DNA of 33,280 nt from Spirochaetota bacterium. Its GTDB lineage: Bacteria > Spirochaetota > Brachyspiria > Brachyspirales > JACRPF01. Positions 14,523 to 29,912 of the stretch are shown in pieces (the stretch's first letter is position 1; every line of letters starts with the position of its first letter). Location of the stretch: assembly GCA_038043445.1 (NCBI GenBank), contig JBBTBY010000175.1, positions 1 to 33,280 of the forward strand. Reading direction: 5' to 3'. The notes beneath the pieces are model-generated. The model searched no databases. It saw only the letters and a list, made by a program, of their open reading frames with translations, and was not told the origin of the DNA. Made by a program: the position numbers and the translations under genes.

Positions 14523-15281
14523 TCACGCTTCCCCGATGCTCCGGAGATAATCCATGCATCCGGTCACGACCGCATGCCGCGACGGTACATCAAGGCCGGT
14601 GACGAGCGCGCCTTCCACTTCCAGAGTGAGCGGGCCGGAAAATCCATTGGTGTGCAGTGCGGCGAATATTTCAGGGAAGCGTACGACACCGCGCCCGAAA
14701 ACGGGGAAATTGCCTGACTTGAACCCGCCGTCGGTGTCCTTGAGATGCACGCTCGCTACCGACGCGATGATCTTCTTGAGCTCATCCGCGCTGTCCATGT
14801 TCTGATTGTAGTAGAAGATGTTCGCTGTGTCGAAATTGATGCGCACGTTCGGATGCGATACCTCGCGCATGGTGCGGAGCATCTCCTCCGCGTTCAGACA
14901 GAACGGGGGATGCGTCTCGAGGCATATCGTCACGCCGTTCTCCGCGGCGCGCTCGCCCACACGTTTCAATACCGATATCGCGAGAGCGCGGTCATTGCCT
15001 TTCGCGCTGATGAAGTAGTGGGCAACACCGATCGCCTTCGCTGCAGCGCAGGCGGTGAGCACGGCTTCTATCGATGCGGCATCATCGCAGTTGAGGTCGC
15101 CCGCGATGGTGAGCGGTGTAACGCCGTTCGTCCGGCAGACGGCATCGGTCTTTTTCAGCGCATCGACAGGCTGCGCCGGAATTTCCGCGAAGTGTATCCC
15201 CGCGAGCGGGAGATGCTTTGCCGCTGTTTCGATGCTGTCATAGACGCCGACGCGGCAGGATATCTTGTTCTGCTTTTTCAT
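14523..15281 (-). CDS. Sugar phosphate isomerase/epimerase-like TIM barrel (1)
   Basis: A 252-residue protein of the xylose isomerase-like/AP endonuclease family 2 fold, which includes ketose epimerases and inosose dehydratases. Metal-site residues are in place: Glu in CLETHPPF, Asp in RINFDTANIF, His in SVHLKDTDGG and Glu in LTLEVEG, together with the FPVFGRGVVRFPEIFAAL loop common to this family. It is cytoplasmic, with no signal peptide. AAGGA lies eight bases before the ATG. Position three in the operon, beside a second TIM barrel and a Gfo/Idh dehydrogenase, suggests an oxidation/epimerisation route for a sugar or inositol. The exact substrate cannot be read from the sequence. Confidence 0.88.
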   Translation of the reverse strand: MKKQNKISCRVGVYDSIETAAKHLPLAGIHFAEIPAQPVDALKKTDAVCRTNGVTPLTIAGDLNCDDAASIEAVLTACAAAKAIGVAHYFISAKGNDRALAISVLKRVGERAAENGVTICLETHPPFCLNAEEMLRTMREVSHPNVRINFDTANIFYYNQNMDSADELKKIIASVASVHLKDTDGGFKSGNFPVFGRGVVRFPEIFAALHTNGFSGPLTLEVEGALVTGLDVPSRHAVVTGCMDYLRSIGEA

Positions 15282-15314
15282 GATGCAAGTCCTTACAGTA
15301 TGATGATCGCGGGT

Positions 15315-16130
15315 TCACGCGTTCGCCCAGCGTTTGAGATCGCCGATAGACTTCTTGATGTCATCATCTTTTTTGCTTCCGCTGATCTCCCGTTCGATGA
15401 TAAGCTCTCCGGTGAAGCCTATCTCCCTGAGCCGCTTTATGAATTCCGGGAAACGTACCTTCCCTTCGCCGATAGGCGTTTCCTTGCCGAGATTTCGACC
15501 GTTGACAGGATACAGTCCGTCCTTTGCATGGATATTCTTAACGTATTTGCCGAATACGTCAAGCGCATCGATGGGATTTCCTTTGCCGTAGAGGATGAGG
15601 TTCGCCGGATCGAGATTGATGCCGAGATTGTCAAGGCCGCTCTCTTCGATATAGCGAAGCAGTGTTACCGGCGTTTCCTGTCCTGTCTCGAACCAGAATT
15701 CGACGCCGAGATCCCTGCAGTATGCGCCGATGTCCTTTATCGCATCGAGCACGGGAAGATAATCCGCATCGCTCATGTTCTCCGGGAGGAAACCCGCATG
15801 GGTGATGATAGCTTTTACGCCTATCTTTTTCGCGAAGTCGGCCGCGAGCTTTAATTCCTTCACTCGCTGAGCACGCAGCTCCTTCGGGATGAGCCCGAGC
15901 GTCGATGGCCCCTCAGTGAAATTCCACTTGCAGCCGCCGGTATATCCCGCCCAAAGCCCGCTCACGCGAATGCCGGTGCTTTTCATGTCGGTCACGACCT
16001 GCGCTGCGATATCATCGCGCCAGAGCGAGGGATCCCAGTTGACGAATTGACATACGGCAAGACCGAATTTCTTCACTTCTTCGAACGTGTTCTTTCCTTC
16101 CGTAAGCCGGGTGATGACGCCGATGTCCAT
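15315..16130 (-). CDS. Sugar phosphate isomerase/epimerase-like TIM barrel (2)
   Basis: A 271-residue xylose isomerase-like TIM barrel, distinct from its neighbour and too different to be a recent duplicate. Likely metal ligands are Glu in FWFETGQET, Asp in GINLDPANLI, His in NIHAKDG and Glu in LIIEREI. The loop PIGEGKVRFPEFIKRLREIGF is the usual one near the active site. AGGAG lies seven bases before the ATG. It is the second gene of the operon, 27 bp after the dehydrogenase gene and 33 bp before the other TIM barrel. Two such enzymes next to a Gfo/Idh dehydrogenase are common in operons that convert unusual sugars or inositols; the substrate is unknown. Confidence 0.9.
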   Translation of the reverse strand: MDIGVITRLTEGKNTFEEVKKFGLAVCQFVNWDPSLWRDDIAAQVVTDMKSTGIRVSGLWAGYTGGCKWNFTEGPSTLGLIPKELRAQRVKELKLAADFAKKIGVKAIITHAGFLPENMSDADYLPVLDAIKDIGAYCRDLGVEFWFETGQETPVTLLRYIEESGLDNLGINLDPANLILYGKGNPIDALDVFGKYVKNIHAKDGLYPVNGRNLGKETPIGEGKVRFPEFIKRLREIGFTGELIIEREISGSKKDDDIKKSIGDLKRWANA

Positions 16131-17288: not shown

Positions 17289-18695
17289 CTATCGCGGCAG
17301 CGATCGCTTGATATATTCCACTATCGATTTCGTGCTGATCTTGACCGCTTCTATGGCGACTTCTTTCATGATACGGGAAAGCTCCTGTTCGGAGGCTATC
17401 ATCTTATCGGCAAGGGCTTCATCGATCATGCGGCGTATCGTGGCGGTATCCACGGCCGGACCGTCCGTTGAACGTTCCGGCGCAACGCCCGCCCTATCGA
17501 TGAGGGCGTTGCCGGCCATGGCGGGTATTGCGGCATCATCGATAGCCGGGACGGCATCTTCGGGGACGCTATCGAGCAGAGGCGGGGCATCGTTCGCGTC
17601 GGCTATGGCGATATCCGGCATTGCATCCGGCGTATCACCCGCTTTCATGTCCTTCATCATTGCCTCTATGTCGTCGGCACCCTTGAGGAGGGCATCGATA
17701 TCGGCATTCTCATTGCCGGTTTTTGTATCCGCCTCGAGCGCGGGTATATCGTCAAGTCCTTCTATCTGAATGCCGGCGTCGTCATCCGCTGAGGATGCAC
17801 CGCCCTTGTCGGCTGCCGCAAAGAACGGTTGATGATGCATTGTCATGGCTCCCTCCCGGGGAACGGCCGGGGCTGCACGATATGCCCGGGCTGTCATTAT
17901 CATAATACCTGAAACAAGGCCGATGAGCAAGAGTACCAGGGATATCATGGTGCCGCGATATATCCGTGCTGTCCCGTCGGCACGGATGAGCACCGCTTCG
18001 TCCGGCAGGCGGAGGCCCGCGTTGAGCGAACGCGTACGAGTGAAGGGTATTTCCATGAAGAGCATGTCGCCGATAAGGCGCCGATAATGCATTACGTTCA
18101 TCTCCGGCGTTCCGTCGCGGAAATGTATGCGGCCTTCGCTCACGTAGTAGACCACATCGGGGAGCGTGAGCGAGAGAAGACCTACGCTCTTGTTCGCTTT
18201 CTCATATTCGGCGGCGCATTGCCGCTCCTTCGATATCGTCAGATACGTTTTCAATCCCCATTCAAAGGAGCCGGCAGCAAGGGCGCATAAAGCAGCGAGG
18301 GCGATGCCGCTCTTCAATACTGCACGGCGCGTCTCGAGCAAGGGTATCATATTCCTAAACATCCCTGGTATTCGCAGTATACGCAGAAATCGCAGATACG
18401 TGAGAGGCGCGAGGAAGGTAAGCTCGGGGATGACGGCAAGAACGGATAGAACAGGGACGGCACCCAATGCATCGGCGATGCCGTATTTCGAGAGGAAGTA
18501 TTCGCGACGATCGCCCGATGTCAGCCGCACAAGGAAGTCCGCGAGGAAGAGGATATCGATGACGCCGCTGAGGACAACGATCGCACGTCCGCTGGCCGGT
18601 GTGAATTCGGTAACAAAGAGGCATATTGACAACAGTACGAACAGGGGCTGGATGCGGTCCCAGCGCCGTATTATCGGGGAGAGATCGATGATCAT
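17289..18695 (-). CDS. Voltage-sensor-like membrane protein without K+ filter, acidic cytoplasmic tail
   Basis: A 468-residue membrane protein resembling the voltage-sensor half of ion channels. Hydrophobic segments: S1 about 17-30, S2 about 37-58 (DILFLADFLVRLTSG), S3 about 72-90, S4 about 95-115, another at 128-146 and a last one at 249-268. S4 reads YLRFLRILRIPGMFRNM, with arginines at every third position (102, 105, 108) as in voltage sensors. Where a channel has its pore loop, residues 147-248 form a roughly 100-residue extracytoplasmic section with no TVGYG-type filter. Residues 270-468 are an acidic, Asp/Ala-rich tail followed by an amphipathic helix (VDTATIRRMIDEALADKMI). Function is unknown. 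It is divergent from the cyclase gene, with its own sigma-70-like promoter and only a weak ribosome site. Confidence 0.78.
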   Translation of the reverse strand: MIIDLSPIIRRWDRIQPLFVLLSICLFVTEFTPASGRAIVVLSGVIDILFLADFLVRLTSGDRREYFLSKYGIADALGAVPVLSVLAVIPELTFLAPLTYLRFLRILRIPGMFRNMIPLLETRRAVLKSGIALAALCALAAGSFEWGLKTYLTISKERQCAAEYEKANKSVGLLSLTLPDVVYYVSEGRIHFRDGTPEMNVMHYRRLIGDMLFMEIPFTRTRSLNAGLRLPDEAVLIRADGTARIYRGTMISLVLLLIGLVSGIMIMTARAYRAAPAVPREGAMTMHHQPFFAAADKGGASSADDDAGIQIEGLDDIPALEADTKTGNENADIDALLKGADDIEAMMKDMKAGDTPDAMPDIAIADANDAPPLLDSVPEDAVPAIDDAAIPAMAGNALIDRAGVAPERSTDGPAVDTATIRRMIDEALADKMIASEQELSRIMKEVAIEAVKISTKSIVEYIKRSLPR

Positions 18696-18912: not shown

Positions 18913-20733
18913 ATGAGCACTCGCGCGGAAAAGCCGTCCATGAAGATAGGCACGAAACTTATTCTCATTGTTTCAGGGATAATCATCCTGTCGCTGGCGA
19001 CCATGACGGTGCTCGCGACCGTGTTCTTTAAGCGCGATAATGAAACGCGACTTCGGGAGAACAATCATCAATTAGCGGGTATTATCGCCCTGAAAGTGAA
19101 GAGCGATATCACCTCTCTCATCGCCGATATGCGTTTTGCCGCAGCCGTGCTCAAGGACGGGGGCGACAGGCAGAAGCTTGCCGAGCGATTCTTTACGAGC
19201 GATTCGATCGCGGCAGCGGCGCTGGTACGCAGGGACGGCGAGCGCGGCAATGTGCGCGTGTTCCTTGCCAATCCTGCCGCGGCGATGCCGGTCGAAAAAT
19301 TCCGCGAAGTGCTTCTTGACGGCGAGCGCTTTGTCCGTGCGGTCAACGGGGAAACGGTCGTCGATAATGTCTCCGATATCCTTGGGGTGCCGGCGGTAGC
19401 CGTCGCTGTTCCGACGGGGGTTGGGGAATACACCATCAGTCTCTGTAAGGCGGCGATATTCCTCGATGCGTTCCGGCAGTCGGGGATAACGGAGACGTTC
19501 ATGGTCAACGGCGCGGGCGATGTCATCGCACATCCGAAAGGGGAGATTGTCCTCGCCAAGGGCAATTATCGCACCCTGCCTGTCGTTGCGATGATGCTCA
19601 CCAGTCCCACCGACAACAGCGAGACACGATATGTCTTTTCCGGCATTCGCTACCGCGGTGCGTTCAAGAAGATCGGCATCGGCGGTGTCGGCGTCATCGC
19701 GACGGCTGCCGAGGATAAGGTGTTCGCGGAAGTGTATAATATACAGCGGCGTAATCTTCTCATCTCGATAATAGTCCTTACGCTCGCGATACTCGTCGTG
19801 TACTTCTTCGCGAAAACGCTCACCGGCCCCATCGTACGGCTGGTGAAGGCGACGAAGGATATCGAAGAAGGGCGTTTCAATGTGGCTATTACCGCGGCAT
19901 CGGGCGATGAGATCGGCGTGCTTACCCGATCGTTCGTACAGATGGGAAAAGGGCTCGAAGAGCGAGAGCGCATAAAAGAGGCGTTCGGGAAATTCGTGAA
20001 CAAGGACATAGCCGAGCGCGCCGCGAAGGGCGAGATAAAGCTCGGCGGCGAGCGTAAGCGTGTGACGGTGTTCTTTTCAGATATACGATCCTTTACCGCG
20101 ATGTCCGAGAAGCTTTCTCCGGAAGAAGTGGTCGATTTCCTCAATCAATACATGGGCCGCATGGTCCGCTGCATCGAGGCTACCGGCGGCGTTGTCGATA
20201 AATTCATCGGCGATGCCATCATGGCTGTCTGGGGCGCGCCGGTGTCCACCGGGCAGGATACGGCGAGCGCCATAGACGCGGTGCTCGCGATGCGCGAGTC
20301 GCTCAAGGAATTCAATGTCGGACGCGGTACCGACACGAAGCCGCGCATCAGCATCGGGGCGGGCATACACTCCGGCGATGTGCTCGTCGGTCAGATCGGG
20401 AGCGAGCACAGGCTCGAGTATACCGTCATCGGTGATACGGTCAATCTCACGTCGCGTATCGAATCGCTCACGAAACCTTTCGGTGCGGACATACTGATAT
20501 CGGAAGAGGCCTACCGCGAGGTGAAGGACCGTTATACGTTCGCGCCGATGAAAAAAATAAAGGTGAAAGGAAAAACCGAGCCGCAGCAGGTCTATGCGGT
20601 GCTCGGGCGCATCGGGGATGCGAAGGCGTTCCGATCGATAGAGGAGTTGAGAAGCACGCTCGGCATCGTATTGAAGGACGGTGTTATGGGCGATGATGAG
20701 GAAGAAAAGAAGTATGAGATCCTCGATGCGTGA
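18913..20733 (+). CDS. Membrane-bound class III adenylate cyclase with HAMP domain
   Basis: Makes cAMP from ATP in response to an external signal. It has 606 residues: a basic N-terminus, TM1 (13-38), a periplasmic Cache-like sensor (about 40-280), TM2 (280-301), HAMP (302-355) and the cyclase domain (375-565). The catalytic set is complete: metal Asp 390 in FFSDIRSF, metal Asp 434 and Lys 430 in VDKFIGDAIMAVWG (the Lys is the ATP-selecting residue in this family), and the transition-state Asn and Arg in IGDTVNLTSRIE. Adenylate rather than guanylate cyclase activity is inferred from that Lys. The end overlaps the next gene by about 40 bases, so the FecR/PEGA protein is translationally coupled to it. 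Confidence 0.94.
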   Translation: MSTRAEKPSMKIGTKLILIVSGIIILSLATMTVLATVFFKRDNETRLRENNHQLAGIIALKVKSDITSLIADMRFAAAVLKDGGDRQKLAERFFTSDSIAAAALVRRDGERGNVRVFLANPAAAMPVEKFREVLLDGERFVRAVNGETVVDNVSDILGVPAVAVAVPTGVGEYTISLCKAAIFLDAFRQSGITETFMVNGAGDVIAHPKGEIVLAKGNYRTLPVVAMMLTSPTDNSETRYVFSGIRYRGAFKKIGIGGVGVIATAAEDKVFAEVYNIQRRNLLISIIVLTLAILVVYFFAKTLTGPIVRLVKATKDIEEGRFNVAITAASGDEIGVLTRSFVQMGKGLEERERIKEAFGKFVNKDIAERAAKGEIKLGGERKRVTVFFSDIRSFTAMSEKLSPEEVVDFLNQYMGRMVRCIEATGGVVDKFIGDAIMAVWGAPVSTGQDTASAIDAVLAMRESLKEFNVGRGTDTKPRISIGAGIHSGDVLVGQIGSEHRLEYTVIGDTVNLTSRIESLTKPFGADILISEEAYREVKDRYTFAPMKKIKVKGKTEPQQVYAVLGRIGDAKAFRSIEELRSTLGIVLKDGVMGDDEEEKKYEILDA

Positions 20734-22696
20734 TGCGATCGCCGTCGGAGCATCGCTCGCGATCTGTGCGGGTGCGTCGATGGCGTTATATATTGACGCG
20801 AATCTTTCGCGTACGCAGAGCGGCCAGGCGATAGGTACGGTGTCATACACGCGAAAGAGCGCCGAGCGCAGGCCATCCGATGATGTGGTATGGGATGCCG
20901 TCAAGCGCGAAAGTCCGCTCTATGATAAGGACACCGTACGTACCGATGATGATTCATCCGCCGTCCTTACGCTCACCGACGGTACGAAGCTCACGCTCGA
21001 TGAGCAGACGATGATAACGATAGAACGCCCGTCCCGCGGCGGTGTTCGCGTAGGCCTTGAGCGGGGCGCGATGCGTGCGGCACGTACCGAGGCTGCCTCG
21101 GGGCAGATGCGTGTTTCCGCGTCCGGCGGTGCCGTCGCAATGACGACCGGTGATGCCGTCATACGGGCCGATAACTCTAATTTGACCGCATCGGTGGCAT
21201 CCGGTTCGGCGACCGTCACTGCGGTGAAAGGCCAGATCATGGTCGGCGCCCGCGAAGAGGCTGTCGTTGCGAGCGGCACTGCGGTGAAAAAGGCGGATGC
21301 GATAGCCCTTATTACGCCGGCGTTCGACGAAGTGTTCGTCGCGGCCGATATCGATGTTCCCGTGACGTTCCGATGGAGCGGCGGAGCGCGCGCAACGCTC
21401 ATCGTTTCGTCTGATCATGCATTCAATGATGTTGTCCTCACGCGGAAGAACGAGAGCAATGCATCGATCGTGCCGCTCGCCGCCGGAAGATATTTCTGGC
21501 GTGTGACATCGGGTCCGGTATCGAGCGAGGTACGCCGCGTCATCATAGAGAAGGCCGCTCTGCCGACGCTCATTGCACCGGCGGATGGGGCGGTGATACG
21601 GCAGAAGGCCGCATCGCTTGTCACTTTCACGTGGCATATGCCCACGGCGATATCATCGACTTTGGAGATATCCGCCGACAATGAATTCAGAACGGTAACG
21701 AAGTCCGCGCCTACCGCATTATCGGAGATAGCGCGGAGCATGGCGCTTGGACCGTATTTCTGGCGGGTGCGTTCGGTGATCGATACCGGGTACAGGACAT
21801 CGGAAATAGTGAGCGCTGCCCGTGCGCTCACCGTTACCAATGCCGTTTCGCCGCGGGTGACGCTCGTCTATCCCGCCGACGGCGCATCGATGGATGGCGA
21901 GAGTGCATCGAATGCCTTCAGCTGTTCGCCGGTTGACGGCGCCCGTTCGTATACCCTTGTCGTGAGCCGTGACGGATCGGGGACCGATGCGGTCTTTCAG
22001 GGCGTTTCCGAGCTCAACGTCATATCGGTCGTCAAGCATATCGCGCCGGGGGAATACCGCTGGCGTATGCGGGCCAATGACGGGAGTGCCGAGATAGCCG
22101 CTTCTGCGACACGACGTCTTATCGTGACGGGAGCAATGTCCGGGGCTGCCGCGGGATCTACGAATATATCGATGATCGCAACGAATACGCCGCAGACGAA
22201 CGGTCCGATGGCGGCAGTGAAGGACAAGCCGGTGAGACCGAGACCGATCGTTGTCCCGGTGAAGACGAATATTGTTCAGAACAAAGAACCGATGCGGAGA
22301 ACGAATGCGGCGAGGACGGCGTCTCCGGTGACGGCGATATCCCTTTCGGTGAGCCCGCCGGGGGCGACGGTCGTATATATGGTGAACGGTAAACCGCGAG
22401 CGATGACATCAGGCATAAGCGTCATTGCGCCCGGGACGTATACCGTTTTCGCTTCGCTCGACGGCTACATCCCGCTGAAAAGAACGGTCACCATCGCGAA
22501 AGGGGAGACGAATGCCGTCGCCCTCGAACTGCGAAGGAAAGTGATCGTGACCGAGCGTATCACGCTCCTCGATGATACCGTGATCTCCGGCAAGATCGTC
22601 AAGCAGACGGCGGCGGAAGTGCATATCGATACCGATGACGGCAGGAAGATCATAAAGCGCGACGAGATACAGGGTGTTCAGTACCTGAAGAAATAG
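20693..22696 (+). CDS. FecR-domain and PEGA-domain envelope protein
   Basis: A 667-residue exported or membrane-anchored protein. After a basic start comes one hydrophobic segment (about 15-34, AIAVGASLAICAGASMALYI), then a FecR domain (about 47-200: DTVRTDDDSSAVLTLTDGTKLTLDEQTMITI, GAMRAA). Three repeats of roughly 95 residues follow (210-480), each with PADGA-type openings and a closing YFWRV or YRWRM, like fibronectin-type modules. A Thr/Asn/Pro-rich linker leads to a PEGA domain (about 545-610: SVSPPGATVVYMVNG and SLDGYIPLKRTVTI) and a final small beta module (VISGKIVKQTAAEVHI). Here FecR is unlikely to control an iron-type sigma factor; it is probably a ligand- or glycan-binding envelope part. 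The start is uncertain among 20681 (GTG), 20693, 20696 and 20714; all overlap the cyclase end. Confidence 0.85.
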   Translation: MMRKKRSMRSSMRDAIAVGASLAICAGASMALYIDANLSRTQSGQAIGTVSYTRKSAERRPSDDVVWDAVKRESPLYDKDTVRTDDDSSAVLTLTDGTKLTLDEQTMITIERPSRGGVRVGLERGAMRAARTEAASGQMRVSASGGAVAMTTGDAVIRADNSNLTASVASGSATVTAVKGQIMVGAREEAVVASGTAVKKADAIALITPAFDEVFVAADIDVPVTFRWSGGARATLIVSSDHAFNDVVLTRKNESNASIVPLAAGRYFWRVTSGPVSSEVRRVIIEKAALPTLIAPADGAVIRQKAASLVTFTWHMPTAISSTLEISADNEFRTVTKSAPTALSEIARSMALGPYFWRVRSVIDTGYRTSEIVSAARALTVTNAVSPRVTLVYPADGASMDGESASNAFSCSPVDGARSYTLVVSRDGSGTDAVFQGVSELNVISVVKHIAPGEYRWRMRANDGSAEIAASATRRLIVTGAMSGAAAGSTNISMIATNTPQTNGPMAAVKDKPVRPRPIVVPVKTNIVQNKEPMRRTNAARTASPVTAISLSVSPPGATVVYMVNGKPRAMTSGISVIAPGTYTVFASLDGYIPLKRTVTIAKGETNAVALELRRKVIVTERITLLDDTVISGKIVKQTAAEVHIDTDDGRKIIKRDEIQGVQYLKK

Positions 22697-22700
22697 ACAT

Positions 22701-22728
22701 GCGGGGTGTTGGGATATCGATGCCCCGC
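22701..22728 (+). terminator. Hairpin between the FecR/PEGA gene and the sulfatase gene
   Basis: GCGGGG (22701-22706) pairs with CCCCGC (22723-22728) across a 16-base loop, immediately after the FecR-gene stop. It touches the stop codon of the converging sulfatase gene. No U-run follows on either strand, so it may be a shared weak terminator. Confidence 0.35.
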
Positions 22729-24071
22729 TACAGAGCGTCGGCGTTCCGTATCACCGGGGCCTTGCCGCCTGCGGAGACAATGCACTGTGTGATCGCCTCT
22801 GCGAGCGCTGTGCGTACCGATGCATACGCGTGTTCGCGGACGAGGTTTTTTCGTTCATGCGGATCGTTCTCAAGGTCGTAGAGATGATATTCATGATAGA
22901 CCTCGCCGCCCGCGTGATTTCCGCTCCAGGGCTTATCGCTTTTCACCCATATCTCATATTTCCATTTCTTCGTCCGTATCGTACGCCCGACATGATCTTC
23001 ACTTATCTCTGCGTATACCATATCGCGCCAAGCCGTTGTTCCCTGCACGAGCGCTGACAGGTCCTCGCCGCGCATGACGGACGGTTTCTGTACACCTGCC
23101 GCACCAAGCACGGTCGGTGTCGCATCGAGAAGACTTACGAGCCCGTCGCACACGTTTCCTCCGGTAAAGCCGGGTCCCCGCACGATGAACGGAATGCGCA
23201 GGCAGCTGTCATGGCAGGCGCGCTTGTACTCCTTGTTCCGTGTCCGGAAATGCGTGCCATGGTCGCTCGTGTAGATGATAAGCGTGTTCTCGTATATGCC
23301 GCGGCGTTTGAGCAGAGCGACGATACGACCGACATTCGCGTCAATGGCATTGCAGCAGCCGAGATAATCGGGATAATTCTCACGCCAGTCGCCTTCGGTC
23401 CCGGCAAGATCGCCCGGCACTGCAAAGTCCTTGAATTTTTCCCTTGAGCCGTGCGGTCCTTCGTAGCGGTTATGATCGTTCTGATGATGCGGTTCGATGA
23501 ATGAGGTGAACAGGAAGAACGGCTTTTTCAGATCGCGCGACGAAAGATAGTCGATGATGAAGTCGCCCTGCGCATCGGCGCGAAATCTCCCTTCCGGGAA
23601 TACGCGCTTATTGCCATCTGCGTCGAACATATGGCCGTCATAGCTGTGCGATGTGAATTCAAGCACATCGGATGCTATCCAGAAATCCCTGTATCCGCCG
23701 CGGCGTTCCATCGGCACGGGGTGCTCGCGGAAATCCTCGGTCCCGTTCCTGTCATTGGACGCGAGGTGCCATTTGCCGATATAGCCAACTTCATAGCCGC
23801 AATCCGAAAGATAATGCGCCATCGTCTTTTCGTTCTGCGCAAGCGCGATGCCGTTGACATAGCAGCCGGTCTCTGTCGCCCACTTGCCTGTCTGCAGCGC
23901 CGCGCGTGCCGGTCCGCACACCGGCTGACAGGTGAACGCATTCTCGAAACGTACGCCTTCGGAGGCGATCGCATCGAGATTCGGCGTCACGGGGAGCTTC
24001 TGGCCGTAGCAACCCATGGTGTCCCATCGCTGCTGATCGGAAAAGATGAAGATGATGTTCGGCTTTTTCAC
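22728..24071 (-). CDS. Sulfatase, Cys-type (A), no signal peptide
   Basis: A 447-residue type I sulfatase that would hydrolyse sulfate esters, probably on sugars. The active-site motif CGPAR (C52-R56) is Cys-type, so the cysteine must be converted to formylglycine; no maturase gene lies in the window. Metal and phosphate-type ligands appear as FSDQQRWDTMGCYG at the N-terminus, YIGKWHL and YTSDHGTH. The start is a GTG at 24071: AGGAG lies six bases upstream, overlapping the previous stop, and the protein then begins directly with KKPNIIFIFSD. There is thus no signal peptide, and the enzyme is predicted cytoplasmic. It is the last gene of the sulfatase/PHP run, 10 bp after the PHP gene. Choline- or N-sulfoglucosamine-type substrates are possible; none is shown. 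Confidence 0.94.
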   Translation of the reverse strand: MKKPNIIFIFSDQQRWDTMGCYGQKLPVTPNLDAIASEGVRFENAFTCQPVCGPARAALQTGKWATETGCYVNGIALAQNEKTMAHYLSDCGYEVGYIGKWHLASNDRNGTEDFREHPVPMERRGGYRDFWIASDVLEFTSHSYDGHMFDADGNKRVFPEGRFRADAQGDFIIDYLSSRDLKKPFFLFTSFIEPHHQNDHNRYEGPHGSREKFKDFAVPGDLAGTEGDWRENYPDYLGCCNAIDANVGRIVALLKRRGIYENTLIIYTSDHGTHFRTRNKEYKRACHDSCLRIPFIVRGPGFTGGNVCDGLVSLLDATPTVLGAAGVQKPSVMRGEDLSALVQGTTAWRDMVYAEISEDHVGRTIRTKKWKYEIWVKSDKPWSGNHAGGEVYHEYHLYDLENDPHERKNLVREHAYASVRTALAEAITQCIVSAGGKAPVIRNADAL

Positions 24072-24081
24072 CAGGGACTCC

Positions 24082-25902
24082 TTACTCGAACCATATCGGG
24101 CTGGAGTAGGCGATGTGATTGTCGATCTGCGTGATACGTACATACCAATTCGACGGTTCTCCCGATGTTTCGGTGATGTCGCCCTGATATTCCGTGCCCC
24201 CCGGTGTAAGCCGCGTATACGGATCGCCGTTCCTGAAGACATCGATCTTCTTTATCGTATTCTCGGCCGCGATATCGATATGTATCGTTTTCTTCTGTTC
24301 GTTCTTCACGACGGAGCCCATGAGCATTCCATTGCCGGTGATGACGAGGCGTATGCGCGCATTCGTCGTGCCGTAGACATGACGTTTTCGGTATGCGTCG
24401 AGTATCGATGCCGTATCGAGCGATCTTGAGAATACCGCAGTAATGCCGTTGGTGCCGACATGCCCTTTGTGGCCGTCGGAATTGCAGACGAAGCCGTAGT
24501 GATGACCGTTCTTGAGAAAATATCTTCCATGGCGGTCGGGGCGAAAGCTCTTTATCATCGGGATATGTTTCTCGAGCACGATATCGGACTCGTAACTTCC
24601 GTGGCAGGAGAATATCTCAAGCACCGGCTCGATGCGCTCATCGGTGGAAAGCCATTCCCCCGGGGGAAGCCCTCCCTGGTTATGGAAATGCGGAATGCTG
24701 AGATAATCTTTTCCGGAAAACCCCTTCCAGAATTCGTCAACGCGTGCATATGAAGGGACATCTATCTCTTCGTACTCCGGTGTCCAGCCGAAAAGCATGA
24801 CCGTGTCGCCGCGTTTGCAGCGGTATTCGATGGCGGGGAAGACGAGGAACTCCCCCGTGCGGTCATATTCTTTCAGCGCTTCCATCGTTCGTTCCCAGCC
24901 GATACGACCGATCTTGTTGCGTTCCTTGTCCCAGGGCTGATGGTGGTCGCTCACCGCATAGAAATCGAGCGCGGCATTGTCGCGGGCGAAGCGCATGAGA
25001 TCGCCCGGATACATGAGGAGCTTCTCTCGTTCGACGCAGTCATTGGAGAACGCCGAGTGCGTGTGTATATCACCCCAGTAGATGTTCATCCCTTCGAAGA
25101 CATTGTCCATCCGCGGTCCATCGAGCATCGATGTTTTTTTCGGCCGTATCGAAACGCCTTTGTCCGAAAAAATGAAGCTTCCGCTTTCAGTGCGCGCAGG
25201 CTTTGCGTTCGCAGAGGCTATCGACGCGAGGTCCGTGACATCGGCGCAGTTCCAGAATTCATCGCGCGGGATGACGACGGTGCGTCTCGCCGTACGTATC
25301 ACCTGCACAGTCTTTGCTTCACGCGGCCGCGTTCGGACGCGAAGCGAAACTTCATGATCGGCAGCGGGGCGGTCATACCCTTTGAACGAGCGTCCGAGAT
25401 CGGGTAGGCCGCGGGTATGTCCGTCAAATACGCGGACATCGATGACATGAGCCGCATCAAGCGTGGGTGCCACCGTTGTCACTTTTGCGCCGGGGCCGTA
25501 GCCGCGGGTATTCTCGCCCCAGCGTATTTCAATCACATCGCCAGCTTCAAGTCCTGTGCCGAGATCGAGGACATACTGACGCATCGCACGAAGCGCGTGG
25601 AAATTCATTCCGCCGCCCTTGATCTCGTTCCCGTGTTCGGCGAACATGTCCTTTTCGAGATTCCATAACCGTTCGGTATAGATGACCGACGGATTGCTTA
25701 CATACGCTTCGACGTATCCATCCATTTCCTGATGAAGCATCGCCGGCCGTGAGGTGCCGATGAGCCCTTGGAAATCGAGTATGATACGCGACTCTCCTTT
25801 CGGAAAATCCGCACCGATGACGAGACGAACGACGAATTCATGCGTATCGCCGGCGAGTACGTCGTCGGGGGTTATTGAAGCTTGAGAGAAGTACCGTTTC
25901 AT
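24082..25902 (-). CDS. PHP-domain metal-dependent hydrolase with N-terminal beta domain
   Basis: A 606-residue predicted metallohydrolase. The second half is a PHP domain: GDIHTHSAFSND gives the first His pair, FYAVSDHHQPW a second site, SIPHFHNQGG a third and FVCNSDGHKG the closing Asp/His. These form the usual multi-metal cluster of PHP phosphoesterases. The first half (about residues 1-270) is mostly beta and unassigned (ADFPKGESRIILDFQGLIG, GDVIEIRWGENTRGYGPGAKV). The C-terminus (IHIDIAAENTIKKIDVFRNGDPY) looks like another beta domain. There is no signal peptide. The ATG at 25902 has AGGAG eight bases upstream and overlaps the preceding sulfatase stop in an ATGA, so translation is coupled. 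Being sandwiched between two sulfatases suggests action on the same substrate; the reaction is unknown. Family members of this shape are sometimes labelled DUF3604. Confidence 0.82.
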   Translation of the reverse strand: MKRYFSQASITPDDVLAGDTHEFVVRLVIGADFPKGESRIILDFQGLIGTSRPAMLHQEMDGYVEAYVSNPSVIYTERLWNLEKDMFAEHGNEIKGGGMNFHALRAMRQYVLDLGTGLEAGDVIEIRWGENTRGYGPGAKVTTVAPTLDAAHVIDVRVFDGHTRGLPDLGRSFKGYDRPAADHEVSLRVRTRPREAKTVQVIRTARRTVVIPRDEFWNCADVTDLASIASANAKPARTESGSFIFSDKGVSIRPKKTSMLDGPRMDNVFEGMNIYWGDIHTHSAFSNDCVEREKLLMYPGDLMRFARDNAALDFYAVSDHHQPWDKERNKIGRIGWERTMEALKEYDRTGEFLVFPAIEYRCKRGDTVMLFGWTPEYEEIDVPSYARVDEFWKGFSGKDYLSIPHFHNQGGLPPGEWLSTDERIEPVLEIFSCHGSYESDIVLEKHIPMIKSFRPDRHGRYFLKNGHHYGFVCNSDGHKGHVGTNGITAVFSRSLDTASILDAYRKRHVYGTTNARIRLVITGNGMLMGSVVKNEQKKTIHIDIAAENTIKKIDVFRNGDPYTRLTPGGTEYQGDITETSGEPSNWYVRITQIDNHIAYSSPIWFE

Positions 25903-27377
25903 ATGTGTCGCTCCTGTAATCCAAAACGGTCGTAGAGCTCTGCCGGCGCATCGTTCTTTTGCATGCAATCTTTCAAGAGCGCTGTCATGCGTTTTTCAAT
26001 GGCACTATCATTCATCGGTGTGTCCTGCGCAGGATCTTTCTCATTGTCGAAAAGCAGTGTCCCATGCTCGCCGCCGCCAGGACCTGCCGGTATTTTCATG
26101 ACGCGCGCGCCTTTGGTGAAAGAGAATCCGTCATGCATTTCGGCATTTGCAAGCTGATCATTCCTGAAGAAGCCGCGCATATTCGTCGGCATGACCGTGT
26201 ACTGATTGAGCGACTTGATCTTGTCGGGTGCGCGCATATACACATACCGTCCGTCGGTGACATTGATATGCTGTCCGTGATAGCCGAATATCACCGCATC
26301 ATGTATCGCTTCGTTTTTATCGATGACGCTTCTCAGCGGTTTTCCTTCCATGTCTTTCGGTATCGGTACGCCGAAATAATCGAGCAGGGTAGGCGCAATG
26401 TCTATCGTCTGTACTAGCCTGTCATTGCGCACGCTCTTCTTCCCTGAGCGCGGGTCCCATACGAAGAACGGCGTGTTCGCTATCTCGTTGTAGAGCGGCG
26501 GATTGTTCTTCGCCATCCAGCCGTGTTCGCCGAGCAGAAAGCCGTGATCGGTGTTCACGATGAGCATGGTGTCTTTCCAGAGATCATGCCTGTCCATGGT
26601 ATCGATAATAGTGCCGAGATAGTGGTCGCACATGGTTAAAAGGGCCGCGTACTGCATACGGAATTGTGTGAGATATTCCTGCGGGAAGTCGGCTTTGCCG
26701 TATTTCGGCCAGTCGAGGACGATGCCGAGTGCATCGTAGTTGTGCTTGTATTTCTTCTTCCATTCCGGCTGTGAGAAGAACGGTTCATGCGGGTCGAATG
26801 TTTCGATAGTAAGGAACCAATTATCGGAAGCGTGATTCTTTTCGATGAATTCCTGTCCGAGCCGGAATGTGTTCGCCTGCGGCATATCCTCTTCGCGCCT
26901 GATATAGCCCCGATTGACATAGTCCTGCCGGTGATGCGGACTTTTTTTGCAGTAAGGTTCGGGATTGAATGCTGCGGGTGATCCTTTGACCGATACATCG
27001 GCTTTCCACTGATCTCCTTCCTGGCCGCGCGGGAATTCCCATGATGAATACCGGTTATGATATGTTGCCCCGCCATCCTCCCAGTAATGGTAATGATCGG
27101 AGATAAGATGCGTGTAGATATCCGCTTTCGAAAGCAATTCCGGCATGGAATCGTCGAACGGCTCGAGAGGCCCCCAGGAGCGGTGCAGGAAATTATAACG
27201 CCCGGTGTGTATCTCCCTGCGTGCCGGCATACAGGGCATGCTTCCGATGAAGCATTTTTCGAACGTTACCGTGCGTTCCGCCAGCCGGGAGAAATTCGGC
27301 GTTACCGTCCAGCCGCAGCCGTACGGCGCGAGGAGACGGCGGTTGAGCGAATCGAACATGATCATGATGGCTTTCAT
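25899..27377 (-). CDS. Sulfatase, Cys-type (B), no signal peptide
   Basis: A 492-residue type I sulfatase. The active-site motif CMPAR (C49-R53, in SMPCMPARREIHTG) is Cys-type and needs formylglycine conversion. Other conserved pieces are IMFDSLNRRLLAPYG, TVTPNFSRLA, FDPHEPFF and NTDHGFLLGEHG, the last carrying metal-binding Asp/His. The subfamily differs from sulfatases A and C, so the three probably cut different sulfate positions. The start at 27377 has AAGGAG eight bases upstream and gives MKAIMIMFDS, with no signal peptide; an earlier in-frame start (27416) lies in the repeat side and has no ribosome site. The stop overlaps the PHP gene start. The 137-bp repeat sits just upstream, between this gene and sulfatase C. 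Confidence 0.94.
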   Translation of the reverse strand: MKAIMIMFDSLNRRLLAPYGCGWTVTPNFSRLAERTVTFEKCFIGSMPCMPARREIHTGRYNFLHRSWGPLEPFDDSMPELLSKADIYTHLISDHYHYWEDGGATYHNRYSSWEFPRGQEGDQWKADVSVKGSPAAFNPEPYCKKSPHHRQDYVNRGYIRREEDMPQANTFRLGQEFIEKNHASDNWFLTIETFDPHEPFFSQPEWKKKYKHNYDALGIVLDWPKYGKADFPQEYLTQFRMQYAALLTMCDHYLGTIIDTMDRHDLWKDTMLIVNTDHGFLLGEHGWMAKNNPPLYNEIANTPFFVWDPRSGKKSVRNDRLVQTIDIAPTLLDYFGVPIPKDMEGKPLRSVIDKNEAIHDAVIFGYHGQHINVTDGRYVYMRAPDKIKSLNQYTVMPTNMRGFFRNDQLANAEMHDGFSFTKGARVMKIPAGPGGGEHGTLLFDNEKDPAQDTPMNDSAIEKRMTALLKDCMQKNDAPAELYDRFGLQERHI

Positions 27378-27394
27378 AGTGAGTCTCCTTGAAC

Positions 27395-27531
27395 AACCCT
27401 TATCCCTCCAGCCCACTTCCCCCTTTATTTAAAGGAGATGGGGGAGCGATTACTATTTCAATAGCAGGCATCCTGCTGTTTTCGCTCCCCTTTCCCTTCT
27501 TAGAGGGGAAAGGGGTTGGGGGATAGGGGTG
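27395..27531. repeat. 137-bp repeat with imperfect terminal inverted repeats (MITE-like)
   Basis: The two ends are imperfect inverted copies of about 28 bp: AACCCTTATCCCTCCAGCCC at the left and, read on the other strand, CACCCCTATCCCCCAACCCC at the right. Inside are nested perfect palindromes: GGGGAGCGA (27441-27449) with TCGCTCCCC (27482-27490), enclosing AGCAGG-CAT-CCTGCT (27463-27477), plus CCCCTTTCCC (27487-27496) with GGGAAAGGGG (27506-27515) and CCTTTA-TT-TAAAGG. It has no coding capacity and fills the whole gap between sulfatases C and B. Its composition (homopurine/homopyrimidine blocks) is unlike its neighbours. A non-autonomous mobile element is the best guess; no clear target duplication is seen. 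Confidence 0.72.
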
Positions 27532-27534
27532 AAT

Positions 27535-28953
27535 TTACAGAATATGCTTCAATACCTGCGTCGGATTTCTTCCAACGATCAATTTGTTCCCGTCGCTGTA
27601 TCCTTCCTCCCGTCCGTCAAGTTCCTGAACGAGCCTTGTTCGCCATTCGGCAAGTTCATTCGCCTTTTGCCCCGCACAATCATGCTGCTCATTGGGATCG
27701 TTGACGAGGTCGAAGAGCTGCTCACGCCCCGTCTGTGAGAACCACGCATATTTCCATTTTCCATCCGTGAGCCACTGATTCGATCCCTCTCCCCACTCAT
27801 GCTCCCCGTGTATATAGTCTCTCCATGCGGGGCTCTCTCCGCGGCACAACGGCATCACGCTTTTCCCTTCAACCGATTTCGGCGTTTCGATGCCGGCGAT
27901 GTCGCACATTGTCGGGAATATGTCGCGCATCTCCACCGGCGCATCGATGGTCCTTCCCGTCGGGAGAGCGTTCTTCTGCGGATAGCGGATGATAAGCGGC
28001 ACGCGTGCACATCCCTCGTACGGCAGCGCTTTCGCGGTGAGATTATGATCGTAGAGCATATCGCCGTGATCGGATACGAATATTATCCAGGTGTTATCCA
28101 TCAACATTCGCTCATGGAGCGCATGGATAAGCCGATTGATCTGATGATCGATAAAGGTGAGCTGCGCGTAGTACGCCTTTCGCGCACGGTCGATGGCATC
28201 GGGATGCGACGGCACCGGGCTGTCCGGGCCGCGGTCGGCACGCAGAAGCTCCGCCCAGTCACCCATGACCGGCGGCGGGAGCGTTTTCCTGTCATACATG
28301 GCGAGATAATCGCGCGGCGGATCGAGCGGCGGGTGCGGGCGGTGATATGATGTATAGAGGAAGAACGGCTTGTCCGGGTCGCGTCGGCGGAGAAAGTCAA
28401 TTGATTCAGTCGTCACCCAGGCCATCGGATGCTCGAGCGTGTCGTAACACCACGGCGCTACCGCGTAACCGTTGCAGCCCATGCCGGTATCAATGAAGTC
28501 TGCGGTCGCTCCGCGCCGGTCGCGAAGCCACAGGAGATAATCGTCACGGTCGGCGATGTCTCCCTGTGAGCGTGAGCGGTGAAGATATCCGTCATGGAGA
28601 ACGACATTGTGAAAACCGAGAAGATTCCGCTCAGGATATACATGCATTTTCCCGACCGCCTGCGTATGATATCCGGCATCGGCAAGCGTCCCGGCGAGCG
28701 TCGTATCGTATTTCCACGGTACGCCGTCGCGGTAACCGACTCGCCCGTGCGTGCGCTGCGTCAATCCCGTCATGAGCGAAGCCCGCGAGGCGATGCACGA
28801 GGGCACGGCAGCGTAGGCTTTCGAGAAGCTTACCCCGCTCCGAAAGAAGCTGTCCAGATGCGGTGTTTCTACCGACGGATGGCCGGTAAAGGAGAGACAG
28901 TCCGCCCTCCATTGGTCGGCGTGGATAAGGACGATGTTCGGCCGTGTGTTCAT
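27535..28953 (-). CDS. Sulfatase, Cys-type (C), no signal peptide
   Basis: A 472-residue type I sulfatase. The motif CIASR (C53-R57, in AVPSCIASRASLMTGL) is the C-x-A-S-R form of the formylglycine signature. Conserved sites are LIHADQWRADCL at the N-terminus, AVGKMHVYP and VSDHGDMLYDHN. FFLYTSYHRPHPPLDPP is the usual substrate-pocket loop of this family. The ATG at 28953 overlaps the previous gene's TGA (ATGA), with GAGGAA upstream, and the protein opens MNTRPNIVLIHADQ with no signal peptide. It is the third gene of the IclR-led run. The substrate is unknown; sequence differences from A and B argue for separate specificities. Confidence 0.95.
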   Translation of the reverse strand: MNTRPNIVLIHADQWRADCLSFTGHPSVETPHLDSFFRSGVSFSKAYAAVPSCIASRASLMTGLTQRTHGRVGYRDGVPWKYDTTLAGTLADAGYHTQAVGKMHVYPERNLLGFHNVVLHDGYLHRSRSQGDIADRDDYLLWLRDRRGATADFIDTGMGCNGYAVAPWCYDTLEHPMAWVTTESIDFLRRRDPDKPFFLYTSYHRPHPPLDPPRDYLAMYDRKTLPPPVMGDWAELLRADRGPDSPVPSHPDAIDRARKAYYAQLTFIDHQINRLIHALHERMLMDNTWIIFVSDHGDMLYDHNLTAKALPYEGCARVPLIIRYPQKNALPTGRTIDAPVEMRDIFPTMCDIAGIETPKSVEGKSVMPLCRGESPAWRDYIHGEHEWGEGSNQWLTDGKWKYAWFSQTGREQLFDLVNDPNEQHDCAGQKANELAEWRTRLVQELDGREEGYSDGNKLIVGRNPTQVLKHIL

Positions 28954-29912
28954 ACGTTCCTCGCTTTCTGAAGACGCTTCACTGCATTCCATGTTGCGTG
29001 ATTGAATCGTTCCTCATTGTTCTTTTCAAGCATTTCATGCGCGCAGTAATAGTACATGAGATGGTCCATCGGCAGTGCAAAAGCGCGGTCGACGTTGGCG
29101 AGATAATTCTCGAGGTCCTCGTCGCGGTGACGCTGTGCCTCAAGAAGGTAAAACGACTTTTTTTCGGCACGGTCTATGATGGGCTGGAATTCTTCGTACG
29201 CTTCGAATATCGTGCGTTTCATCCGGTGCATCTGATGATCGGGTGACCGTACATGACCGTCGCTGCCGATGTAGTCGATGTTCGTCGTTGCCGTCATCGC
29301 GCGCAGAAGCCCTTCGCTTTCCGGCATGACAAAGCAGCTTGCGGCGGTTTTGCTGTTGAACGATTTGAAATGCACGGTCATGTCATCGAGGAATGATGCG
29401 GTCATCGCATGCTGCCATGTATCGGTCGGTATTCCCTCCGGCGCCGCTTTTCGGCAGTGTTCGCAGAAGCAGGCTTTTGAATGCGGCTCGTCCCAGATGA
29501 TGCCGTCGATATCGAATGTCTTCATCATCGACTCGATGGAACGCATCATGTGGTCTCGCACTTTCGGGTGCTGCGTGCAGGATGCCATCTCTCCCTCAAT
29601 GCGCGGCGTGCCGTCCTCGCGGCGGATGATGGTATCCATGTTCTTGAGCGTGAACTCGCCGAAGGCGTCGAACCAGCCGGCGACGAGACCCGCCCAGCGG
29701 TTGGGGACAACATGCACAGCGAGCCCCGCATCATGGGCCATGCCGATGAATCGCTTGATGCGCGGCATATGCCAGTTCGTCATCTGCCATTCGATAAGGC
29801 AGAACGATACGATGTCCGTGCCGAGCGACTTCATGCGCTTGAGGTCTTTCGCGAGATACTCGCGCAGTATCGTGTGATTGTGCGGTGCATAGTAGTAGCA
29901 GTTCACGTTCAT
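28950..29912 (-). CDS. Glycosidase-like TIM-barrel protein
   Basis: A 320-residue protein that looks like the putative glycosyl hydrolase-like TIM barrels found beside glycan genes. Evidence: strand-helix repeats from NVNCYYYAPHNH, a first strand-end SFCLIEWQM, AVHVVPNRWAGL, and the signature IDGIIWDEPHSKACFCEHCRK, where WDEP is the typical acid site and CFCEHC may hold a metal or disulfide. Later strands give ASCFVMPES and DYIGSDGH. There is no signal peptide. The start at 29912 is preferred because AAGGA lies seven bases upstream and the first strand begins at once. Only four bases separate it from the IclR stop, and its own stop overlaps the sulfatase C start. Catalytic activity is inferred, not certain. 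Confidence 0.75.
   Translation of the reverse strand: MNVNCYYYAPHNHTILREYLAKDLKRMKSLGTDIVSFCLIEWQMTNWHMPRIKRFIGMAHDAGLAVHVVPNRWAGLVAGWFDAFGEFTLKNMDTIIRREDGTPRIEGEMASCTQHPKVRDHMMRSIESMMKTFDIDGIIWDEPHSKACFCEHCRKAAPEGIPTDTWQHAMTASFLDDMTVHFKSFNSKTAASCFVMPESEGLLRAMTATTNIDYIGSDGHVRSPDHQMHRMKRTIFEAYEEFQPIIDRAEKKSFYLLEAQRHRDEDLENYLANVDRAFALPMDHLMYYYCAHEMLEKNNEERFNHATWNAVKRLQKARNV

Follow-up and report, generated by a model that had tools for sequence, protein, structure and literature searches.

The voltage-sensor domains (VSDs) of voltage-gated channels carry 4–6 basic residues at every third position of S4 (PMC10651576), and pore-less VSD proteins have been described in eukaryotes, i.e. the phosphatase Ci-VSP, Hv1, TMEM266 and SLC9C1 (PMC13095418, PMC10651576, PMC10620092). 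The protein family of Spirochaetota that is presented here has in common with the channels (Ion_trans, PF00520; Kv/Nav/Cav) the helices S1–S4, the S2 motif Fxx[DE], the S3 aspartate, the Arg/Lys at every third residue of S4 and six transmembrane helices in total; it differs from them in the lack of a pore loop or filter, in an alpha/beta insert between TM5 and TM6 and in the presence of a gene for a helical partner. With the eukaryotic proteins it shares a VSD that serves a purpose other than the gating of a separate pore, whereas the bacterial family contains neither phosphatase nor exchanger and is distinguished by a receptor-like TM5/TM6 module and a C-terminal helix. Hv1 consists of the VSD only, without S5 and S6, in contrast to the two further transmembrane helices of the protein under study; with respect to Ci-VSP, no Pfam domain for a PTEN-like phosphatase was present in this protein, which has a disordered tail and a helix in that place. 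The order of transmembrane helix, alpha/beta extracytoplasmic domain, transmembrane helix and juxtamembrane segment is also that of Cache-HAMP receptors (chemoreceptors, sensor kinases, cyclases); unlike in the latter, a VSD precedes the first of these helices, an MCP, kinase or cyclase output is missing, and Cache or HAMP were not detected by Pfam. The CheX/CheY chemotaxis modules of spirochaetes share the gene neighbourhood with the family in three lineages (f56, f32 and the Borrelia-type f37), but neither the VSD protein nor its partner is a known chemotaxis component. A search of the openly accessible literature, which was not complete, yielded no publication that describes a bacterial receptor of the pore-less kind.

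Voltage-sensor homology of the window protein

The analysed stretch of DNA (33,280 nucleotides from a Spirochaetota bacterium; hereafter the window) contains an intact open reading frame with ATG start, the product of which (the window protein) is organized as follows:

17289..18695, minus strand: whole open reading frame of 468 aa; it encodes a divergent representative of the pore-less VSD family of spirochaetes
18609..18680, minus strand: S1 helix, residues 6–29 (AlphaFold2 model)
18516..18587, minus strand: S2 helix, residues 37–60, with the charge-transfer motif F50xxD53FxxR57 (AlphaFold2 model and alignment)
18438..18509, minus strand: S3, residues 63–86, with the invariant D75 (alignment and AlphaFold2 model)
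18348..18428, minus strand: S4 helix, residues 90–116, with R102/R105/R108 followed by R114, fewer charges than in canonical relatives (AlphaFold2 model)
18258..18326, minus strand: TM5, residues 124–146, modelled as one helix continuing to residue 166 (AlphaFold2 model)
17979..18257, minus strand: extracytoplasmic insert, residues 147–239, a small alpha/beta domain without selectivity filter (AlphaFold2 model and motif scan)
17874..17978, minus strand: TM6, residues 240–274 (AlphaFold2 model)
17451..17870, minus strand: cytoplasmic linker, residues 276–415, acidic by composition (30 D/E versus 8 K/R) and for the most part disordered in the AlphaFold2 model
17301..17447, minus strand: C-terminal helix, residues 417–465, shared by the two paralogues and, in the sister genome, by a stand-alone tail protein

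The earlier note on this DNA had proposed a voltage sensor, S1–S4, with arginines at positions 102, 105 and 108. These arginines form the sole RxxRxxR run of the protein; since such a run was present in 7.7% of shuffles of residues 1–140, it is weak evidence by itself and the case for a voltage sensor rests on homology. Indeed, the proposal was borne out by a Pfam Ion_trans match to residues 17–140 (E 6e-6, 26 bits versus a cut-off of 25 bits), by the comparison of the family profile with solved Kv/Nav/Cav channels, in which the VSD and only the VSD was matched (best E 3e-7), and by the AlphaFold2 model. The family profile was needed for the second of these results; a PDB sequence search with the single window protein gave nothing significant (best 0.075). 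The model, of moderate confidence (pTM 0.50), comprised S1–S4, TM5, an alpha/beta domain up to approximately residue 238, TM6, a disordered stretch and the C-terminal helix. Structure prediction, suggested beforehand as a check, hence showed VSD-like S1–S4 helices, and the top Foldseek matches of the model, although weak (best E 0.03), were voltage-gated channels. The elements of the gating charge-transfer centre (F50xxD53 in S2, D75 in S3) are present.

A spirochaete-wide protein family and its partner

Within a spirochaete-wide, previously unnamed family of pore-less VSD proteins, the window protein represents a divergent paralogue; neither Pfam nor NCBIfam provides a name for this family beyond Ion_trans across the VSD. 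No relative was found in the first contig scan, in which the single window protein served as query; when 84,980 species were scanned with a group-1 alignment, 12 loci were confirmed, all of Spirochaetota. Group 1 includes full-length relatives from six Spirochaetota families, among them the canonical paralogue encoded in the same genome (L002:1087-2370, 427 aa), which adjoins hflX and rfaE2-like genes (names assigned by eye). The larger, widespread group 2 was represented by profile matches in 117 of the 393 sampled Spirochaetota genomes. An alignment of the two groups covers 285 columns (HHalign probability 99%), comprising the VSD, both TM5 and TM6 and the juxtamembrane segment, and Ion_trans was matched by 10 of the 11 group-1 and 33 of the 39 group-2 members. 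The S2 motif F-x-x-[DE]-[FY]-x-x-[RK] and the S3 aspartate occur in nearly all members, and canonical ones typically possess 6–9 basic S4 residues at every third position, a pattern kept in most lineages. Neither the window protein nor any of 50 family members gave a Pfam match to a HAMP, kinase, cyclase or MCP domain; matches to NCBIfam kinase models were weak and confined to a few of 39 members.

Group-1 VSD genes are usually preceded directly, on the upstream side, by one that encodes a soluble, all-helical protein of some 270–410 aa. This partner was present in 10 of the 393 genomes, i.e. all eight with a strong group-1 VSD and two with weaker VSD matches (G220, G070); canonical group-1 VSD and partner therefore co-occur without exception in this sample. 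The window genome encodes its partner (G000:C50:3104-4276, E 6e-117) unlinked to the VSD genes, and the sister genome likewise retains the partner apart from them. Its model (mean pLDDT 77) matched no fold in the PDB (best E 2.0). Group 2 has an upstream gene of its own, and no relation could be detected between the partners of group 1 (family A3) and those of group 2 (family A6).

Sensor, insert and divergence of the window copy

In group 1, the mean majority fraction amounted to 0.64 for S1–S4, 0.62 for TM5, 0.63 for the juxtamembrane segment and 0.52 for TM6, compared with 0.34 for the insert; on account of these values, the VSD, the TM5/TM6 pair and the juxtamembrane segment are regarded as the conserved machine of the family. 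The earlier note had placed two further membrane segments around about 100 residues without a selectivity filter behind S4, which agrees with the model, where the gap measures 93 residues. This insert was modelled as alpha-beta-beta-alpha-beta(4), mostly at pLDDT 83–92 (a171-177, b181-186, b189-192, a201-209, b213-217, b221-223, b229-231, b233-238). By the order of its elements only, the modelled domain might be called PAS/Cache-like; as Pfam found no Cache or HAMP domain among 50 family members, this stays a topological suggestion. In the Treponema sp. UBA12037 member (L115:7968-8969), TM5 and TM6 are separated by 11 residues, with VSD, TM5, TM6 and tail all kept.

According to alignment A8 and the model, the window copy exhibits the group-1 architecture of VSD, TM5, insert, TM6 and C-terminal helix, and it keeps F50, D53, R57 and D75 of the S2/S3 signature. 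Its S4, however, contains R102/R105/R108 and R114 versus the 6–9 basic residues of canonical relatives, and the juxtamembrane motif FAxDM..LIxDSxDAxDYxLL, present in the other members of A8, is absent. In the tree it is located on a very long branch (24% identity at best), in consequence of which its placement is unreliable. In three further members (L015:1132-2808, L017:1447-2844, L099:8037-9155) the S4 arginine pattern is lost and the remainder of the protein kept, with a gene still in the partner position at L015 and L099. The pattern is also lost in the G024 homologue; together with L015 and L017, this indicates that the fold can persist without it. The VSD-like proteins of the Borrelia-type loci L067 and L068 lack the S2 motif and have just three arginines in S4.

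These deviations bear on the strongest competing explanation, in which the VSD would be a mere membrane scaffold and the Cache-like insert the sensing part, so that the protein would act as a ligand receptor without voltage sensing. We consider it improbable on the whole and nevertheless a serious alternative for the window copy: the reduced S4 charge of the latter and of the Borrelia-type members, the loss of the pattern in L015/L017, the missing juxtamembrane motif and the well-modelled insert are all in line with it, whereas a canonical VSD among the most and an insert among the least conserved parts, the nearly insert-less L115 member and the retention of the S4 pattern across most lineages are not. 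A sensor of membrane potential coupled to something other than ion flow, as had been proposed for the window protein, accordingly is the best reading for the family; for the window copy it is less certain, the three S4 arginines and the lost juxtamembrane motif making voltage sensing by this protein uncertain. In one branch, the window protein probably fine-tunes or substitutes for its canonical counterpart.

Absence of a pore motif between TM5 and TM6

A pore loop hidden in residues 147–248 had been named as an observation that would speak against a non-conducting protein. The region was found to be occupied by the alpha/beta domain, none of the K+, Na+ or Ca2+ filter motifs was present in the insert of the window protein, the family profile ceases to match channels at S4, and the L115 member does almost entirely without an insert; voltage-sensor homology without a pore is thus supported. 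GFG, GYG or TEEKW occur scattered in a few group-2 members. Ion conduction, whether through an unrecognised pore in a channel of unusual type or as an Hv1-like proton or gating-pore current through the VSD, is quite unlikely in our estimate. The homology of the VSD to channels and the gating-pore currents known from VSDs without S4 charges (PMC10651576) would be compatible with it; the alpha/beta domain in the position of the pore, the profile matches ending at S4, the filter-free insert in comparison to the TTGFG of L034 (a channel-like ORF obtained in the same scan) and the absence of TM5/TM6 from Hv1 argue against it.

Acidic linker and C-terminal helix

The cytoplasmic tail, described previously as acidic over 200 residues, is 193 residues long; its acidic character holds for residues 276–415 and not for residues 417–465, which form a near-neutral helix. 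This helix is 45% identical to that of the paralogue L002 and about 60% identical to that of a soluble protein of 213 aa from the sister genome (L006:1315-1956, genome G001), which consists of the acidic linker and the C-terminal helix alone. The conservation of the helix and the existence of this stand-alone protein suggest that the tail constitutes a module that has its own function. The gene of the tail protein is situated between genes for a FocA/NirC-like transporter and a DnaJ-like protein (both assigned by eye).

The degree of helix identity also weakens the assumption that the window copy is a decaying duplicate, non-functional or nearly so, as do the intact reading frame of 468 aa and the preserved signature residues of S2 and S3; despite the very long branch with its low identity and the loss of S4 charges and juxtamembrane motif, which would fit such a decay, we regard it as very improbable.

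The adjacent adenylate cyclase and other window genes

Next to the VSD gene, the window encodes a cyclase:

18913..20733, plus strand: membrane sensor-HAMP adenylate/guanylate cyclase, divergent neighbour of the VSD gene (Pfam)

From this arrangement the earlier note had derived a hint at signalling, with conservation of the pairing as a check. The hint was not supported: the orthologous cyclase of the sister genome (57% identity, same FecR/PEGA neighbour) has a trpB-like gene upstream instead of a VSD gene, no comparable cyclase was found beside the VSD at the other family loci examined, and it is another gene that serves as conserved partner. The pairing of VSD and cyclase was in consequence rejected, and a window protein dedicated to the regulation of the divergent cyclase, for which the head-to-head position of the genes at a distance of 217 bp would speak, is hardly credible in the light of these loci.

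The cyclase and the FecR/PEGA gene (window 18913-22696) form a conserved pair that recurs in the sister genome (L129:6897-10647). A run of sulfatase-like genes follows on the minus strand (22728-28992; Pfam was applied to the first, 22728-24242). A 369-aa ORF on the plus strand (14745-15854) overlaps two real minus-strand genes of sugar isomerase-like proteins and is probably spurious.

Gene neighbourhoods in relation to chemotaxis and motility

At L116 and L075, genes for CheY, CheX, a MASE6-Hpt-HATPase kinase, the partner and the VSD protein, followed by FliG, are located on one strand, and at L090 a CheX gene lies approximately 5 kb from the VSD gene. At L067 and L068, a flaA-cheA-cheW/cheR-cheX-cheY series runs tail to tail into the VSD-partner operon. 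Chromosome size (0.90–0.94 Mb) and gene order suggest that the genomes of the latter two loci are those of Borrelia and Borreliella. Their loci (L067:8160-10575 and L068:8387-10799) comprise the partner gene, the VSD-like gene and a gene for a 171-aa protein (170 aa in L068). On the Borrelia loci around BB0673-BB0676, the accessible literature yielded a single mention, of BB0676.

A chemotaxis neighbourhood was thus encountered in three lineages (f56, f32, Borrelia-type f37) of about 25 examined. The proximity to CheX is suggestive of a link between the VSD protein and chemotaxis or motility, with the reservation that such neighbours were sought after the first case had been noticed and that, with 1–8 CheX genes per genome, proximity by chance is expected at a few percent in each lineage. 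FliG was present in 115 of the 117 VSD genomes, the two exceptions being incomplete; as the listed genomes without FliG belong mostly to one family (f49), the co-occurrence of VSD and flagella is weak.

ComFB and PilZ are both linked to c-di-nucleotide binding, and their genes lie within approximately 9 kb of eleven group-2 loci. Recurring neighbours in group 2 (L070-L081, L085, L092, L117) are a protein of about 1600 aa, a probable beta-barrel of 450 aa and an HD-domain-like protein (both by eye), ComFB and PilZ/DUF1577.

Proposed mode of action and significance

On balance, and with slightly better than even confidence, we interpret the Spirochaetota family, to which the window protein belongs as a divergent paralogue, as pore-less voltage-sensor receptors that signal by way of TM6, the C-terminal helix and the partner. 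A change in membrane potential would move S4; this movement would pass along the S4-TM5 linker into TM5 and TM6, in a manner resembling that of HAMP-type receptors, and could alter the presentation of the juxtamembrane segment and the C-terminal helix to the putative binding partner. The partner would relay the signal, with motility, chemotaxis or the control of c-di-GMP as the most plausible targets; a second input, from the extracytoplasmic side, may come from the insert. A more specific proposal appears rather unlikely at present, namely that spirochaetes own a dedicated membrane-voltage receptor, the pore-less VSD of which reports via TM5/TM6 and the helical partner to the control of chemotaxis and motility, the window protein being a retuned paralogue.

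We know of no sensor that has been named for the effect of membrane potential on chemotaxis in Spirochaeta aurantia. Judging by their titles, the studies of Goulbourne and Greenberg (1981, 1983, J. Bacteriol.; cited in PMC4841586) report that membrane potential takes part in the chemotactic signalling of this species and that voltage clamp inhibits it. If true, the voltage-receptor reading would offer a molecular candidate for this involvement, and the family makes both gene deletion and measurements on the protein possible. With a widespread bacterial family of pore-less VSD proteins and their dedicated partner, voltage sensing would come to include signal transduction in bacteria.
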